From positions 1-29,063 of IMG/VR virus record IMGVR_UViG_3300035698_001450: DNA of 29,063 nt. One strand, given 5' to 3'. The DNA comes from a virus. This document shows positions 4,251 through 29,063 of this stretch, in pieces. Under the pieces are notes generated by a model, which saw nothing but the letters and a program-made list of their open reading frames with translations, ran no database searches and was not told where the DNA came from. Both the position numbers and the translations under genes were made by a program. Within the stretch, counting starts at the first letter, position 1. Each line of letters opens with the position of its first letter.

Positions 4251-4260
4251 TTGCTTAAAT

Positions 4261-4692
4261 TTATATTGAAACTGTTGTTGATTTGATAAGAAAGTTTAAT
4301 TTATAGGCTTCTTTGGGGTTGTTGTGAATCCAGACATGACCTTTGCGGGAAACGGCAAGCCAGAAAGGCACATAATTCAACAACTTCCCTTTCCTTCCCG
4401 CTTTGTGATGAATTTCTTTTGCAAACCTTTGTTCCTTGAAGATAAGACTGGCAACAGGACAAAGCGCGTTTTCAGGCTTTGCAAGAAAGACTTTGCGCTT
4501 CTTTGAATAAATATAGTTTTCACCTTTCCTTCTGTCTGAAACGGGCTTGATTGCTTTGCGTTGGGGCTTTGGCTTTGACTTCTGGCTTTTGTAAGCGCAA
4601 GCGGGTGAACAGAACTTGTCTGTTGTCCTGTAAATCTTGAATTCTTTGTTGCACCCTTTACAGGCGCAAATTTTTGTGGGCTTGATCTTCAT
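4261..4692 (-). CDS. Zinc-finger HNH-like protein (NinG-like)
   Basis: 143 aa. The N-terminus has a zinc-binding finger (CACKGCNKEF, then KFCSPACAYKSQ) with four well-placed cysteines, followed by a basic Lys/Arg-rich linker. The C-terminal half contains KEIHHKAGRKGKLL and VSRKGHVWIHNNPKEA, the His-rich pattern of a degenerate HNH nuclease frequent in phage early operons. It resembles NinG-type recombination proteins in context and layout. Likely role is DNA binding or cleavage at recombination intermediates; activity is inferred. It starts 3 nt after the RHH-like gene. Confidence 0.6.
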   Translation of the reverse strand: MKIKPTKICACKGCNKEFKIYRTTDKFCSPACAYKSQKSKPKPQRKAIKPVSDRRKGENYIYSKKRKVFLAKPENALCPVASLIFKEQRFAKEIHHKAGRKGKLLNYVPFWLAVSRKGHVWIHNNPKEAYKLNFLIKSTTVSI

Positions 4693-4695
4693 GAA

Positions 4696-4857
4696 TTACT
4701 TTTTCTTTTGGATTGCTTCAGAATTGACTTTGATATACTTACGGACATAAAGCCGCAATTGATGACTTGGTGTTGTGAAGTTATCTTGACAGACCTTTTT
4801 AAATTCAGCCTTGACTTCATCTTCAACTTTGAAGTTAATTATTTTGTCTTTTGACAT
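4696..4857 (-). CDS. Small ribbon-helix-helix-like protein (53 aa)
   Basis: It starts MSKDKIINFKVEDEVKAEF. A short strand (IINFKV) followed by two helices (EVKAEFKKVCQDN, and SHQLRLYVRKYI after a Thr-Pro-Ser cap) is the plan of MetJ/Arc-type ribbon-helix-helix DNA-binding proteins. Such proteins bind operators as dimers. Its ATG overlaps the stop of the zinc protein upstream (TAATG), and it ends 3 nt before the HNH-like gene, so it is translationally coupled. The reading frame is intact and fills the gap exactly, which supports it as a real gene. Confidence 0.6.
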   Translation of the reverse strand: MSKDKIINFKVEDEVKAEFKKVCQDNFTTPSHQLRLYVRKYIKVNSEAIQKKK

Positions 4858-5081
4858 TATTCTTGATTTAAAAGGTTTAATTCTTCAAGGGCTTTGATAA
4901 GCGGAACGCGTATTGAATGAAGAAGTTTTTCCTTTCCAGTTCCTTTGCATTTGGGGCAATCCTGAACAAAATTCATTTTCCTGAATGAAAGGTTCTTCTT
5001 TGATTTTCCGTCACACACAGAACACTTGACAAGCGTGTAAGTATGCTTAATGACCATAAATTCTGATTGTTTGTCTTCCAT
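4857..5081 (-). CDS. DnaJ-type zinc-finger protein (74 aa)
   Basis: Two CxxC pairs are visible: VKCSVCDGKSKK near residue 20 and QDCPKCKGTGKEK near residue 42. They form a zinc ribbon like the DnaJ central repeat (CxxCxGxG). Many phages carry small proteins of this kind in early operons; their role is not settled and may be nucleic-acid or protein binding. It is followed by the RHH-like gene with a TAATG overlap and preceded by a membrane microprotein 3 nt upstream. Confidence 0.6.
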   Translation of the reverse strand: MEDKQSEFMVIKHTYTLVKCSVCDGKSKKNLSFRKMNFVQDCPKCKGTGKEKLLHSIRVPLIKALEELNLLNQE

Positions 5082-5084
5082 GAC

Positions 5085-5171
5085 TTAAAGGTTTTTATAT
5101 TTATGAATGATATAAAATTCAATTGCAATTCCTATCACAAGTGCAATGACTAAATATTGATAAAATTCCAT
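5085..5171 (-). CDS. Single-pass membrane microprotein (28 aa)
   Basis: ATG at 5171 to TAA at 5085 encodes MEFYQYLVIALVIGIAIEFY followed by IIHKYKNL. Nearly the whole protein is one hydrophobic helix with a basic C-terminal tail. It starts 2 nt after the ASCH gene's stop codon and ends 3 nt before the next ATG, exactly filling the operon gap. No function is known. Small early phage membrane peptides can be toxins, inhibitors of host processes or superinfection factors. Confidence 0.45.
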   Translation of the reverse strand: MEFYQYLVIALVIGIAIEFYIIHKYKNL

Positions 5172-5173
5172 GA

Positions 5174-5509
5174 TTAATTTTTTTTAAGGTTTCCAGAACT
5201 AAGAATTTCACCCAAATAAATAAGAATGTCACCTTCTTCAATAGATACTTCAAGACCGTTTGAATATTTGCCCAAAGACTTCTTCTTGCAAGTATCAAAA
5301 CCATTAAAGATTGAAATGAAGAACGGCGCGTTTTTTTTATAGCCGTGTGTAAACTTGACAACGTCAAATTCTTTTCTTGTTCCGTTTGAATTAAACAGGC
5401 GGCTTTTTATCCAGTCAGACGGCTTGCGGAATTCAATTGTTTTTTCACCCGTGACCATTACTTGAAACGGGGCTTCTGACAATGTTAGGTGAAGTGTTGA
5501 ATGATTCAT
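5174..5509 (-). CDS. ASCH-like DUF3850-family protein
   Basis: 111 aa. The sequence opens NHSTLHLTLSEAPFQVMVTG and continues EKTIEFRKPSDWIKSRL, which is the DUF3850/ASCH pattern (LHL-LK-PF--M--GEKT-EFRK---W---RL), followed by FDVVKFTHGYKKNAPFF. ASCH domains have a PUA-like barrel and are thought to bind RNA or modified nucleic acid. It is the first gene of the leftward early operon, reading away from the divergent control region at 5510-5751. The role in this phage is unknown. Confidence 0.65.
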   Translation of the reverse strand: MNHSTLHLTLSEAPFQVMVTGEKTIEFRKPSDWIKSRLFNSNGTRKEFDVVKFTHGYKKNAPFFISIFNGFDTCKKKSLGKYSNGLEVSIEEGDILIYLGEILSSGNLKKN

Positions 5510-13074: not shown

Positions 13075-15735
13075 ATGATATTAATAAACACAGTTGACAC
13101 AAAATATTTCACCCTTGACGGCGTGACTTTAGCAAGAATTTATCAGCCATTGGCGCAAGGTTCTGAAGCAATTGGACTTTATTCAATTTATGACACAAGA
13201 CAACAACTTGTGAATTCAACGAAATATGATGAATTTACAATTGACGGTTCAACTTACGCTTCGCAAGAATTGGCAATTGCGGCAATTCTGGCTGTGATTT
13301 GGTCAGGCGTTTCAGATTATGACGTTGAACAATTGACAGACCGTGTTGCAATCAATGAAGCGGACATTGAAAACCTTCAAGAAAACCAAGTGACAGGCGT
13401 TGAAGTTTATTCAACACTTGCTGACTTGCCCGCAATGGGAACGCTTCTTGTTTCTTATAAAGTTTCAAATGACCCAACGTCAACAAATAATGGTTTCTAT
13501 CATTGGACGGGCGCGGCTTATGTCAAAGACGCTGATATAATGCTTGATATAGCTATACTTGCAAATGACCTTGATTTCAATAATAAAAAAGGCGTTCAAG
13601 TTGCTGACGGTGTTGCTTCAGGTGACGCAATCAACAAAGGTCAACATGACCTGAAGCAAGACGCTTCTGAATTTACTGATTTATTAGTTGATTTGTCAAA
13701 TTCGGTTTTTGCGCAAGCGGGAACTGATTTGGCGTCTGGCACAATTTACACGCCTGACTTTTATGTCAATGGGATTGGAAATTTGACTTCTTATGTTGGT
13801 TATAATTCAACTGATTATATAAATATACGCGGTCAAGGTTCTGTCAGTTATATTGGTGAAGGATTGGAAGGTAGTACAGCAACGGCATTCTATGATGAAA
13901 GTAAAGTTTTTATTAGTTCAATTGTTGCGCATGGTGTTGCGGTCATAAGTGTTCCAGTAACAGCGTATTTTTTAAGAACTTGTTCAAATAAAGTAACAAC
14001 ACCATATTTGCAAGTGCTTGCTCAAGATAGCGTTGATTTGGCGGGTGAAAGGTTTGACGGTGTTGAAGACAGAACTGAAGCAAGTGAAGCAAACATTAAA
14101 GTCAATAGTGAAACAAGGGTTCTTGTTTACAAGCCAACTGTTGAAGATAAAAATAAATTAATTAATTACGGCAATTCAATTGTTGGTGACTTTTCAATTT
14201 CAGGAAATATTTCTTTGGAAGATGGGATAGCCTCGACAAACGCTTACACAAATGGAACTACATTTAGTGCATCGGTACTATTTACAATGCTGAATGATGA
14301 ATCCTTCAACGCAATTGGATTTAATTTAAGCCCCTACTCTGGAACGGTTACAGCTGGTATATTGATAAAAATATTTGTGAATCATGTATTAGCAAGAACA
14401 ATAAATATTGATAAATCTGATTTAGACTTTTTATCAGCCTTAGCACCTTTAACAACAGCAAACAGAAGTGAACATCTTATTATTGGGAACGTTGATTCAC
14501 TTGATTTGGTGGCGGGTGACATTGTTTCTTTTAATGCAAAATATACTGATGATAGTTATATTAGAACGTCATATAATTCTGACAAAACTGTTTCTTCAAC
14601 TTTTGCTTTATCTACAATTAATTTTGAAGTTGGTAATTGGGATGGAGAAACAGAACCAACGTTTTCCTCGAAGGCTTATACAATGGCATTGCTTTTATAT
14701 AATTTTGAAACTATTTCAAAAATATTCACTTCAAATATTGAAACGCCAATATCAACAGAAGTTCAATTTGCGGGTGACAATTTTGCTTCTGTTTGGGCTG
14801 AATTTGCAAAGTCAATATTTAACAAGGTTATTTGTATAGGTGACAGCATGACGCAAGGATGGACTTCAATAGGAACTTTTAAGAATTTGTCATTTCCTAA
14901 ATTCTTGCAAGACTTGTCAGGGTGGCAAGTAACAAACGCGGGTTGGGGTGGTTCAGCCCCTATAAGTTGGATGACAACGCATTTCAATCAAACTGGAATT
15001 GCTGAAAAAATTGATTTAACAATTACAGCAATACCAACAGTAAATGGAACAGTAACTTTGGAACTTGACGGCAATATTCAAAAAATAACTTTGAACACTT
15101 CAACTGAAACAACAACAAATTTAGTTGCGGAAAAGGTATTAAATGAAGTGTATTTTCCTGAATGGAATATGACTTTGTCAGGAAGTAAATTGACTTTTGA
15201 AAATAAGATAAAAAAAATATGTTTAGAACCTGAATTTGTTGACGCTGAAGGAACAGGCGTGACGGTTGCATTAAGCACTATTTTAAACGGTTATACACAT
15301 CATGTTTATTCAGAATATGACGCCGCAACAATCTTCTTTGGTCAAAATAACGGGCTTACTGATACAATTGCCGCTGACACGGCTTCAGGTGATCCAGATA
15401 CTTACGCAAATACTGAAACGGGTCAATATTGTAGATTGATTGAAGAACTTATCATTGCAAATCCTGACATAAAGATTTTTTTAATTAGTAAGGGAATTGA
15501 CGGTTCTACTGTCACTTGGTCTGTTGTTTATGATATTGGTATAAAATATAGTTTGCCCGTTTTAAATTGGGAAGAAAACGGAATTCATAATTTGACAGAC
15601 GCGGTTTTTCACCCTTTAGATACAATTCATTTTGGTACAATGGGAAACGTTGCTTTTGCTGACGTTGTTTATAAGTCAATAGTCAAATATGTTTATGAAA
15701 ATCAAACTGAATTTGAACAATATAAAATGATTTAA
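13075..15735 (+). CDS. Tail fibre with SGNH/GDSL esterase domain
   Basis: 886 aa. Residues 1-110 look like a virion-attachment domain, followed by a coiled-coil segment (VAINEADIENLQENQVTG), beta regions to about 580, then an SGNH hydrolase. Block I is IGDSMTQGW (nucleophile Ser591), block II NAGWGGSA, block III FFGQNNG (G756, N758) and block V DTIHFGTMG (Asp849, His852). Between blocks II and III sits an inserted beta-rich stretch of about 100 residues. Such fibre esterases remove acyl groups from surface polysaccharide during adsorption. The segment coding residues about 315-532 differs in base composition from the rest of the phage. Confidence 0.75.
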   Translation: MILINTVDTKYFTLDGVTLARIYQPLAQGSEAIGLYSIYDTRQQLVNSTKYDEFTIDGSTYASQELAIAAILAVIWSGVSDYDVEQLTDRVAINEADIENLQENQVTGVEVYSTLADLPAMGTLLVSYKVSNDPTSTNNGFYHWTGAAYVKDADIMLDIAILANDLDFNNKKGVQVADGVASGDAINKGQHDLKQDASEFTDLLVDLSNSVFAQAGTDLASGTIYTPDFYVNGIGNLTSYVGYNSTDYINIRGQGSVSYIGEGLEGSTATAFYDESKVFISSIVAHGVAVISVPVTAYFLRTCSNKVTTPYLQVLAQDSVDLAGERFDGVEDRTEASEANIKVNSETRVLVYKPTVEDKNKLINYGNSIVGDFSISGNISLEDGIASTNAYTNGTTFSASVLFTMLNDESFNAIGFNLSPYSGTVTAGILIKIFVNHVLARTINIDKSDLDFLSALAPLTTANRSEHLIIGNVDSLDLVAGDIVSFNAKYTDDSYIRTSYNSDKTVSSTFALSTINFEVGNWDGETEPTFSSKAYTMALLLYNFETISKIFTSNIETPISTEVQFAGDNFASVWAEFAKSIFNKVICIGDSMTQGWTSIGTFKNLSFPKFLQDLSGWQVTNAGWGGSAPISWMTTHFNQTGIAEKIDLTITAIPTVNGTVTLELDGNIQKITLNTSTETTTNLVAEKVLNEVYFPEWNMTLSGSKLTFENKIKKICLEPEFVDAEGTGVTVALSTILNGYTHHVYSEYDAATIFFGQNNGLTDTIAADTASGDPDTYANTETGQYCRLIEELIIANPDIKIFLISKGIDGSTVTWSVVYDIGIKYSLPVLNWEENGIHNLTDAVFHPLDTIHFGTMGNVAFADVVYKSIVKYVYENQTEFEQYKMI

Positions 15736-26709: not shown

Positions 26710-26962
26710 GCGAATTATAAAGATTTATGATTGAAAATTGATAACCTTTGTCATTAAGAATGAACTGGCGAAGGAATTTGCTGTTGTCAGGAACAATTGT
26801 TTTTTTGTTCAAAGGTACTTTATGAAACTTTGCAAAAGATTTCAGAAGTTGAATTGAGTTTGTCTTGTGTTCAGTTTTCCCGTCTTGAATGAAGTCAAGA
26901 ACAGCAACAATGATTTCAGCCTTCACGCTTTCTGTTTCAGTTCTGTTGAATTTTTCTTTCAT
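26678..26962 (-). CDS. Unknown 94-aa protein
   Basis: It starts MKEKFNRTETESVKAEIIVA. It appears helical and basic, with an N-terminal helix (SVKAEIIVAVLDFIQDG) and a C-terminal segment (FLRQFILNDKGYQFSIINLY). It overlaps the upstream winged-helix-like gene by 4 nt (ATGA), so translation is coupled. The family is unknown. Overlap with the downstream ORF leaves some doubt about that ORF's start rather than about this gene. Confidence 0.5.
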   Translation of the reverse strand: MKEKFNRTETESVKAEIIVAVLDFIQDGKTEHKTNSIQLLKSFAKFHKVPLNKKTIVPDNSKFLRQFILNDKGYQFSIINLYNSLAYAIKQDLR

Positions 26963-27255
26963 AAGGCTTCAGAAATTCCAGCTTGATTAAGTTTCATTTT
27001 CTGGTAAAGTTCAACGGCTTCTTTCTTGTTTTCAAGGCTGTATTGTACAAAAGTGACTTCACGCCCGTATTTGTTGAAAGACTTCACTTCATTTGAAATT
27101 ATTTTGAAGCCTATTTTCCGCAAGTCTGAAATTCTTGCTGTCAAGTTCCAGACGCCGCAAGACAACATCATTGTTTTTCTGTCTATGAAAAGCCTGTTGT
27201 ATAATTCAAAGAACACTTCTTGAATTTGGCTTTCAGGTAAAGCAATTTTTTTCAT
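26959..27255 (-). CDS. Winged-helix-like DNA-binding protein
   Basis: 98 aa. The stretch LSCGVWNLTARISDLRKIGF is a recognition-helix pattern (L-ARISDLRK-G) found in winged-helix domains of phage and DpnI-C-terminal-like proteins. It is followed by the wing strands KIISNEVKSFNKYGREVTFV. The C-terminal helix NKKEAVELYQKMKL completes the domain. It is the first gene of the right-hand leftward operon, next to the integrase, so it may be a lysogeny or excision regulator. That role is inferred. Confidence 0.6.
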   Translation of the reverse strand: MKKIALPESQIQEVFFELYNRLFIDRKTMMLSCGVWNLTARISDLRKIGFKIISNEVKSFNKYGREVTFVQYSLENKKEAVELYQKMKLNQAGISEAL

Positions 27256-27288: not shown

Positions 27289-27319
27289 CAAAACTAAGAT
27301 AAATTATTTAATAAGCAAT
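27289..27319 (-). promoter_or_regulatory. Leftward promoter of the winged-helix operon
   Basis: On the minus strand TTG (27319-27317), a 20-nt spacer and TAGTTTTG (27296-27289) match the Bacteroidota -33/-7 elements. It overlaps the last codons of the integrase gene. Transcription would begin near 27284, leaving a leader of about 29 nt before the winged-helix gene, so this operon can be expressed separately from the integrase. Confidence 0.55.
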
Positions 27320-28118
27320 TTGTTATTCCAGTTGTGTTGAATTGTGAAACGTGTGTATAAATTTCGGTTGTCTTGCTTGAAGAATGACCAAGAAGTTCTT
27401 GAATGAATCTTAAATCAATTCCTTTTTCAAGTAAGTGAGTTGCAAAAGAATGTCTTAATTGATGAGGCGTGACGCTTTTATTTAACTTCTTAGAGCAATA
27501 TTTTACAATGTTGCTTAAAGAGGTTGCAGAATACTTTGTTCCGATTTCCTGACCATTAAAAACATACTTCAGAGGCTTATATGAATGATAATATTCTTCA
27601 AGTTCTTCAATAAAACCTTCATACATTGGAATAAATCTGTCTTTGTTCCCTTTAGATTGCTTCACAATTAGAACTTTCCTTTCCCTGTCTATATGATTAA
27701 ACTTTAGATTAATCAATTCTTGTCTTCTTAATCCAAAATAATACAAGGTTTTAAGTATCATTAAATGCTTGATGTTTCTTGCATTTGAAAACATAATCTG
27801 AATTTCTGATTGTGATAATACAACAGGAAGTTGCTTTTCTTTTCTTGGTCTTACAAATTTTACTTTGTCATATTTCCTTTCAAGAATCTTTTCATAAAAG
27901 AATTTCAAAGCGTTTATTATTTGATTCTGTTGTGAACCTGAAGAATATTTGTATTCATCAATAAACTTTTGCAAATCCTTTCCAGTTAAATGCTGATAGT
28001 ATTTGTCAGTACTTTTCAGAAATATTTCAATATAATGAAGATAAACTTTAATAGTGTTTTCAGAATACCTTATTTGTTTAAGTTTTCGTTTGGCAATATT
28101 TAAAATATTATCATTCAT
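27294..28118 (-). CDS. int: Tyrosine recombinase/integrase
   Basis: 274 aa. The N-terminal SAM-like core-binding domain (residues 1-90) is followed by the catalytic domain with all expected residues: Arg131 in FGLRRQELINL, Lys in KQSKGNKDR, HQLRH (His219, Arg222), LGHSS (His245) and Tyr254 in EIYTHV. The size and compact form are close to XerC/D-like integrases. It would catalyse phage integration or genome resolution. It lacks the additional N-terminal arm-binding domain of lambda Int, and no attachment site was recognised. GAG occurs five times here, far above the phage core, suggesting a different origin. Confidence 0.85.
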   Translation of the reverse strand: MNDNILNIAKRKLKQIRYSENTIKVYLHYIEIFLKSTDKYYQHLTGKDLQKFIDEYKYSSGSQQNQIINALKFFYEKILERKYDKVKFVRPRKEKQLPVVLSQSEIQIMFSNARNIKHLMILKTLYYFGLRRQELINLKFNHIDRERKVLIVKQSKGNKDRFIPMYEGFIEELEEYYHSYKPLKYVFNGQEIGTKYSATSLSNIVKYCSKKLNKSVTPHQLRHSFATHLLEKGIDLRFIQELLGHSSSKTTEIYTHVSQFNTTGITNCLLNNLS

Positions 28119-28231
28119 TATATTGATATTTAGTTAATTAAAAAGGGGTGAATTTATTTAGTAGTTAATTTGCAAGCCGTGATGAAGAAAGACGGCCTAC
28201 AAATAACATAGGCTATATTCAAAAAATGCTT
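28119..28231. other. Intergenic region upstream of the integrase
   Basis: About 110 nt with no coding frame. It contains a small hairpin GCCGT (28176-28180)/ACGGC (28192-28196) and the only GGCC I noticed in the window. It is a plausible place for an attachment site, but no matching repeat was found at the left end. Confidence 0.3.
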
Positions 28232-28606
28232 TTAGTCATGTAACAATTCTGGATTTTCATAAATATTGCCAATAATAGTAATATAACCACCGTAGATGCG
28301 TGAATAATCTTCTCTTGTTTTTACCAATTTCATTGACCATCCATTAACGTACCATACAATTTCAAAAAGTAGATTCTTATAATCAGATTTAACAATATCA
28401 CCATCGTATAATTCTTCCCCATTTTTGTCTTTTATACAGGTGAATTGGCATAATGTCTCAAAAATAATATCGCTTTCTAATCCTGTATCTTGGTTATGTA
28501 TTCTAAACTCATTAGAACAACCTTCAAACCTCTTAGAGTGAATGAAGTTTCCGTAAACCCATTCTGAACTCATTGCCTTTGCTCTAAATTTAATTTCTCT
28601 TTTCAT
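28232..28606 (-). CDS. YopX-family protein
   Basis: 124 aa. It has the full YopX pattern found in many phages: the opening MKREIKFRAKAMSSEWVYGN, the central LCQFTCIKDKNGEELYDGDI, and the end ITIIGNIYENPELLHD. The family is named after SPbeta YopX; its biochemical role is not established. The length is normal. It sits between the methyltransferase fragment and the integrase on the same strand. GAG/CTC is frequent here, in contrast to the phage core, so it belongs with the methyltransferase block. Confidence 0.85.
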   Translation of the reverse strand: MKREIKFRAKAMSSEWVYGNFIHSKRFEGCSNEFRIHNQDTGLESDIIFETLCQFTCIKDKNGEELYDGDIVKSDYKNLLFEIVWYVNGWSMKLVKTREDYSRIYGGYITIIGNIYENPELLHD

Positions 28607-28647
28607 TTTATTGTGTTTTAGTTTTTTAGATTAAGCATTTTCATAAA

Positions 28648-28677
28648 TATAGCCCTATTCGTTGTACACAATATGGC
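28648..28677. repeat. Inverted-repeat copy downstream of the methyltransferase
   Basis: On the plus strand TATAGC, 7 nt, GTTGTACAC, 2 nt, TATGGC, matching in opposite orientation the copy at 127-153. It lies 33 nt after the methyltransferase stop and about 40 nt before the YopX start. TGTACA at its centre is itself a palindrome. It may be one end of a mobile cassette. Confidence 0.5.
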
Positions 28678-28710
28678 TACGTTCCAGTTTTAATTGAAGG
28701 TTCGTGCATA

Positions 28711-29063
28711 TCAGTCGTAATAATATTTTTTTTCCCTCGCTTTTTTCTTACTCATACTTTTAAAAATGTGGGTAATCATTCCAACTTCCCATCCATTACC
28801 AGTTGCTTTTATAGTTTGGTTTAGGCTTATTTCATCACAGTAATTATCGGGTAGATTCATTAGTCTGCACCTTTCAATTTTAGTGTAATTCCTGTAAGGT
28901 AGTTTTCTGTTAAAAGCGTCAGGGTGTCGCCCTATCTCCATTGTGGTTAAAACCGTGTCTTTTGCTACCGTAGTAAGGCAGTTACTTTTATCTCTGTTAG
29001 TTGCTCTTACTTCAAGGCATTGGGTTATCGGTACGGTTTTATCATAGTCTTGGCGTTTACCAC
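28711..29063 (-). CDS. C5 cytosine DNA methyltransferase, C-terminal fragment (enters from right edge)
   Basis: The frame stays open to the window edge, giving 116 residues that begin GKRQDYDKTVPITQ. It contains RDKSNCLTTVAKD, NYTKIERCRLMNLPDNYCDE and a terminal SLNQTIKATGNGWEVGMITH followed by an IF helix. These are the end of the target-recognition region and motifs IX and X (the GN motif) of Dcm-type cytosine-C5 DNA methyltransferases. Judged by motif content this is the missing tail of the fragment at 1-102, with the catalytic core outside the window. The two edges do not join directly in frame, so sequence is missing between them. A separate second methyltransferase is the alternative. 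Confidence 0.75.
   Translation of the reverse strand, partial: GKRQDYDKTVPITQCLEVRATNRDKSNCLTTVAKDTVLTTMEIGRHPDAFNRKLPYRNYTKIERCRLMNLPDNYCDEISLNQTIKATGNGWEVGMITHIFKSMSKKKAREKKYYYD

Follow-up and report, generated by a model that had tools for sequence, protein, structure and literature searches.

Inverted repeats flanking a phage methyltransferase gene as putative core boxes of an integron-type cassette

The inverted repeats that flank a C5-cytosine methyltransferase gene in this phage DNA are very likely the cassette boxes of an integron-like module, whose recombinase captures and exchanges cassettes. The window analysed, a linear IMG/VR fragment of 29,063 bp, encodes a tyrosine recombinase preceded by an attI-like site and holds as many as three cassettes, which carry a YopX-family gene, the methyltransferase gene and a gene for a 118-aa protein. 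In the proposed mechanism, each cassette would consist of an attC-like hairpin and a gene, with a G|TT box at its start and another at its end; the two boxes of a cassette are complementary and would therefore form both arms of a single attC once the cassette is free and circular. Cleavage at G|TT by the recombinase would act on attC as a folded single strand, which would then be joined either to attI or to a second attC. In this way phages would capture, lose and swap cassettes, and the methyltransferase cassette would have been acquired by such a capture. This reading rests on comparison of sequences, in which the boxes, the arrays, their link to the recombinase, the break points at attI and attC, the travelling unit, and the absence of the module from sister phages can be seen; that the recombinase of the window does the cutting, and that folded single strands are used, we infer.

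The methyltransferase cassette and its two ends

The preliminary description had noted TATAGC-N7-GTTGTACAC-N2-TATGGC at 28648–28677 (+) and, in inverted orientation, TATAGC-N4-GTTGTACAC-N2-TATGGC at 153–127 (−). This pair is borne out, as the pattern has only these two matches in the whole window and none in 100 shuffles, and the same pair is the best-matching GTT/AAC pair of the module. TATAGC does not belong to the common terminus, its left copy lying within an attC stem and its right copy within the neighbouring cassette; what both repeats share as a terminus is GTTGTACAC-N2-TATGGC.

That the repeats bracket the methyltransferase in a circular model is true once the contig ends are joined, but the record is linear and the gene is split by both ends. 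Its C-terminal part lies at 28711–29061 (−; PF00145, compare L002:5316–6371) and its N-terminal part (MNFKMKNEMSNN...VLSLFDGISC) at 1–112 (−), where it corresponds to the beginning of the 351-aa protein encoded in viral contigs L002 and L003. A plain end-to-end join is out of frame, and by reference to the intact 351-aa copy in L002 about 553 nt of the gene are absent between the ends. The join is backed by three sister phages (L216–L218), in which the counterparts of the backbone genes on either side of the module, one for a 63-aa HTH protein (682–873, −) and one for a 98-aa protein (26959–27255, −), adjoin each other, so the contig ends belong together. At 28720–28740 the methyltransferase gene has a 2-nt homopolymer deletion relative to L002, either real or an assembly error, which alters its last residues (KKYYYD, then stop).

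The methyltransferase cassette (cassette 2) thus comprises a first part at 28662–29063, followed by the absent stretch, and a second part at 1–190, which terminates in the cassette's own attC-like site. This site (137–196, −; scanner score 15.5) consists of a core box, a 17-bp hairpin and a crossover box, G190|TTAGCA on the + strand; as DNA it folds at −15.0 kcal/mol on the − strand (z −4.5, 0/200 shuffles). The left repeat (127–153, −) lies inside the hairpin and includes one of its arms together with the partner core box GTACAAC (137–143 on +). The right repeat (28648–28677, +) is the other end of the cassette and includes its start box, G28661|TTGTACAC, with the extension TATGGC. From this architecture, the repeats around the methyltransferase are the two core boxes of a putative integron-type cassette.

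A scan of viral contigs recovered the left repeat, the hairpin and the methyltransferase together in L002, L003 (within a 161-kb contig) and L005, all of a different phage type from the window. In these contigs the methyltransferase gene stands in a row of small genes separated by imperfect hairpins with AAC and GTT boxes. The start of the cassette is 98% identical over 143 nt between the window and an unrelated phage, includes the hairpin common to both, and breaks at the repeats; homology with L002 is limited by TGCTAAC upstream and by GTTGTACAC downstream, where it stops at the right repeat. The proposal that the methyltransferase is a discrete, acquired mobile element between its own inverted repeats is therefore upheld by near-identical DNA in an unrelated phage. 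In L002, a second C5 methyltransferase gene (4257–5177) directly follows the one shared with the window. In bacterial genomes the exact repeat is rare (three unrelated matches, fewer than expected by chance), because the version of the box differs from cassette to cassette.

The proposed neighbouring cassettes and the acquired block

Cassette 1 is proposed to extend from the candidate attI to the start box of cassette 2 (28165–28661, boundaries tentative) and carries the YopX-family gene (28232–28606, −; 124 aa; PF09643, 2.3e-16). It has no clear short attC hairpin, and there is no standard attC between the YopX and methyltransferase genes, the window having only one clear attC hairpin. Short complementary stretches, AATAGGGCTATATT and AATATAGCCTAT, flank the YopX gene (28165–28661), which may be enclosed in the loop of a very long attC; in contigs L171 and L172, start codons likewise occur within attC loops. 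Cassette 3 (191–626, outer boundary tentative) contains the 118-aa gene (203–559, −) and is proposed on the basis of homologues in L171 and L172, cassette genes of 75–77% identity that occur between attC-like sites; the L172 array terminates in a related recombinase. In the window the stem of cassette 3 is degenerate, and the 118-aa protein matches no Pfam or PHROG family.

The sister phages L216–L218 are without the whole module and have in its place, between the HTH and 98-aa genes, an HNH-like gene (at least 125 aa) and a small ORF. The module is also set apart by its content of GAG/CTC: 26 sites (10.9 per kb) fall in a stretch of 2,396 nt that runs from the recombinase as far as about position 626, while the remaining window (627–27293, 26,667 nt) contains 20 (0.75 per kb) where about 560 are predicted from composition. 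Based on its absence from the sisters and its lack of depletion, the block from the recombinase to the 118-aa gene is foreign and relatively recent. The preliminary description had noted that the enclosed DNA lacks the depletion; this is correct, but the undepleted stretch reaches beyond the repeats, and the acquired block also includes the YopX gene, the 118-aa gene and the recombinase. An empty site between the YopX and 118-aa genes, which the preliminary description had proposed to look for in relatives, was not seen, as the relatives lack the entire module, and a search with the predicted junction CCCTATTCGTTAGCAAC gave one match, in an unrelated phage, that we attribute to chance.

Among the sisters, L216 and L217 are depleted in GAG/CTC as well (about 1.2 per kb) and L218 is not (7.8 per kb). 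Five of the few backbone sites in the window cluster at 14021–14667, within an 886-aa gene (13075–15735), which suggests a recently swapped segment.

Few of the cassette genes have recognisable functions. In a Pfam scan of 140 cassette proteins there were eight family matches, and at least 130 proteins match no Pfam family. Six of the eight recognised cassettes encode anti-restriction functions (five DNA methyltransferases and one Lar-like restriction alleviation protein), and PHROGs are consistent with Pfam on this cargo. As recognised cargo is mostly anti-restriction, protection from restriction is the likeliest benefit of the methyltransferase in the window, which probably shields phage DNA against the host's enzymes; the benefit suggested earlier thus stands as plausible.

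The recombinase, its candidate attI and the arrays of related loci

About 0.5 kb from the methyltransferase cassette, the window encodes a 274-aa tyrosine recombinase (27294–28118, −; PF00589, 2.9e-35). The earlier statement that no mobilising enzyme is visible, and that mobilisation in trans would be needed, does not hold, since this protein is a member of an integron-integrase-like family that is associated with arrays of these sites. The nearest models are XerA and integron integrase, and the protein scores below the cut-offs of both NF040815 (199 bits, cut-off 220) and TIGR02249 (176.6 bits, cut-off 265). An additional domain specific to IntI serves as a criterion for integron integrases (PMC2426708); the window recombinase has no such insert, with 35 residues between the aligned blocks versus 79 in IntI4 (2A3V), about 44 fewer, and the distance between KGxKDR and HxLRH is 59–63 in the phage recombinases. 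A scan of viral sequences identified 163 relatives, and 80 of the loci were read. In the recombinase tree, the viral proteins stand apart from Bacteroidota chromosomal relatives with moderate support, save two long-branch viral rows, and the window recombinase is itself on a long branch. Recombinases in INPHARED are at most 35% identical to it, and megablast of the window against INPHARED gave no match.

Sites in these loci were located with a custom scanner and thresholds of our own. Over 1.7 Mb, the first scan yielded 323 sites on one strand and 8 on the opposite one, against a single site in shuffled DNA. Among the 69 recombinase loci with enough upstream sequence, 63 have sites before the recombinase and on the same strand; by position, 260 sites are upstream, 2 downstream and none on the other strand. 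When the loci were scanned again with both strands scored alike and polarity left free, 235 sites lay upstream and 22 downstream, with equal spacer polarity in 216 of the 235 and more stable folding of the recombinase-coding strand in 213. Cassette spacing has a median of 411 nt, and the longest ORF is on the recombinase strand, facing the recombinase, in 133 of 137 informative cassettes, so that these units do not have the order of an integron, in which the cassette gene is followed by attC when read away from the integrase. Seen from the recombinase, the layout is integron-like (recombinase, attI, array, and the crossover box at the far end of the unit) with the genes reversed.

Two core boxes around an imperfect hairpin, as in attC, are present at 137–196 in the window and in 281 distinct sites of the related loci. 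Only 26 of these 281 crossover boxes (9%) fit strict GTTRRRY/RYYYAAC, the consensus being closer to GTTANNN. In 121 of 195 cassettes of the related arrays, the boxes at the two ends are complementary at all six variable positions; between the two boxes of one integrated site, a full match occurs in 2 only. The length of the attC loop is too variable for a covariance model. Terminase models match only about a third of 50 tested viral contigs (PHROG 2 in 17, PF03237 in 12), many records being fragments, so some of the arrays may lie in host rather than viral DNA; the window itself carries terminase, portal, protease and tape-measure genes.

In relatives, attI lies immediately ahead of the recombinase start and joins a constant AACTAnnATATA to a variable box; the motif occurs within 120 nt upstream of the recombinase in 42 of 68 loci (chance expectation 0.0026 per locus). 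The window has a tentative candidate, TTAACTACTAAATAAATT on the coding strand, at 28150–28166 (−), −48 from the recombinase start, with the crossover proposed at G28164|T28165 on +; this copy is diverged and matches the consensus of its relatives, AACTAttATATATA, only in part. Sixteen pairs of loci are 88–100% identical from the AAC of attI through 400 nt (attI and recombinase) and unrelated upstream, the break falling 1–4 nt before AAC, which is the footprint expected of cassette insertion at attI.

The unit that moves was identified from cassettes whose bodies are 86–99% identical in different neighbourhoods. In the closest pairs, the identity of the upstream (5') hairpin is 0.79–1.0 (background 0.63, 99th percentile 0.82), and that of the downstream (3') hairpin is 0.45–0.66. 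As the upstream hairpin is kept and the downstream one is not, the mobile unit is a hairpin plus the gene that follows it. The canonical polarity, with the hairpin 3' of the gene, is ruled out by this linkage, by the position of attI and by the strand that folds. Pairs involving L094 and L128 are exceptions that break at the inner box, from which it appears that hairpins are sometimes exchanged; some cassette pairs of more than 90% identity have hairpins at background identity only.

A different account would have the window carry an orphan cassette array (CALIN), its cassettes moved by the integron integrase of a host and its recombinase serving only to integrate the prophage. Arrays without a close relative of this recombinase do occur, in L002/L003 and in Polaribacter phage P12002L, one of whose attC sites (attC2) was recombined with attI1 by bacterial IntI1 (PMC9892861), and sites of this kind are also found close to chromosomal relatives of the recombinase. 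We nonetheless consider this account unlikely, based on the recurrence of the recombinase–attI–array arrangement in dozens of loci and on break points at the site beside the recombinase. A CALIN moreover has at least two attC and no integrase nearby, whereas the window has one clear attC hairpin and, adjacent to it, a recombinase of the array-associated family.

The element envisaged in the preliminary description, a non-autonomous, transposon-like unit with terminal inverted repeats and a transposase in trans, does account for the inverted repeats, which are genuine and mark the two ends of the unit. These ends, however, are G|TT core boxes of the kind found in the arrays, a hairpin is present at one end only, and comparable units number in the hundreds and follow one another head to tail, with junctions at attI, which makes such an element very improbable; no transposase was found among the window proteins searched or read, and no target duplication was seen in the cassette flanks, read by eye. 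Equally hard to credit is a reading of the hairpins as terminators or other RNA structures, with gene turnover by ordinary homologous recombination. The hairpins do lie between genes, where terminators would be, but their AAC/GTT boxes are anchored, their spacers are fixed, breaks occur at a constant site, box complementarity spans the gene rather than the hairpin, and an Rfam search gave no family match. Capture of cassettes by a phage-encoded, integron-like module remains the reading that we favour.

Relation to known integrons

Integrons are known as bacterial platforms, and phages have been reported mainly with borrowed pieces of them. We think it somewhat more probable than not that the loci described here form a widespread class of integrons encoded by phages whose hosts are Bacteroidota-like, characterised by a compact recombinase that captures cassettes without the IntI domain, an attI of its own, genes that face the recombinase, and a stock of small genes open to exchange, anti-restriction ones and others mostly unknown. 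Phages with the module seem able to collect and exchange small genes, for example for protection against restriction. If a phage lineage has a capture system of its own, this would account for fast turnover of small accessory genes and would provide a direct route for cassettes between phages, perhaps also to host integrons; the arrays offer a way to find anti-defence genes, and the phage recombinase opens to question the need for the IntI-specific domain in recombination of folded sites.

Classical integrons (PMC8946536) likewise have a recombinase beside attI, an array growing from attI, a G|TT crossover, and an attC that folds better on one strand, here the recombinase-coding strand. The phage loci differ in having no IntI-specific insert, cassette genes that face the recombinase, boxes that depart from GTTRRRY, one spacer of just 1–3 nt, and a hairpin that travels at the 5' side of the gene. 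The reverse integron of Treponema denticola (PMC4909258) is similar in that its integrase gene and cassette genes run the same way, but is chromosomal and has an IntI.

The nearest cellular relatives are the Bacteroidota chromosomal proteins annotated as "site-specific tyrosine recombinase/integron integrase" (NF040815), which are 44–50% identical and have similar sites nearby. They differ in being longer, mostly at least 345 aa, and in the placement of their sites, which are downstream and on the other strand; apart from one hit, their loci do not have the phage attI motif. The Bacteroidota chromosomes L203–L214 carry these longer relatives together with such hairpin sites and may represent a type of chromosomal integron not yet described.

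Qi et al. (2023) described phages with pieces of integrons and arrays of cassettes, among them P12002L with its methyltransferases (PMC9892861), and our scanner finds in P12002L sites of the same type as in relatives of the window. These phage CALINs resemble the present loci in carrying DNA methyltransferase cassettes and in sharing the hairpin and core-box architecture. They were described either as arrays that lack an integrase or as parts of integrons with IntI (Vibrio, class 1 or Shewanella), whereas the loci here have a compact recombinase and attI of their own. No system in which a phage encodes both a non-IntI recombinase and an attI of its own turned up in the literature searched, which did not include preprints. 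As far as this literature shows, the non-IntI recombinase belonging to the phage, the attI that accompanies it, the reversed orientation of the genes and the wide occurrence of the arrangement are new.
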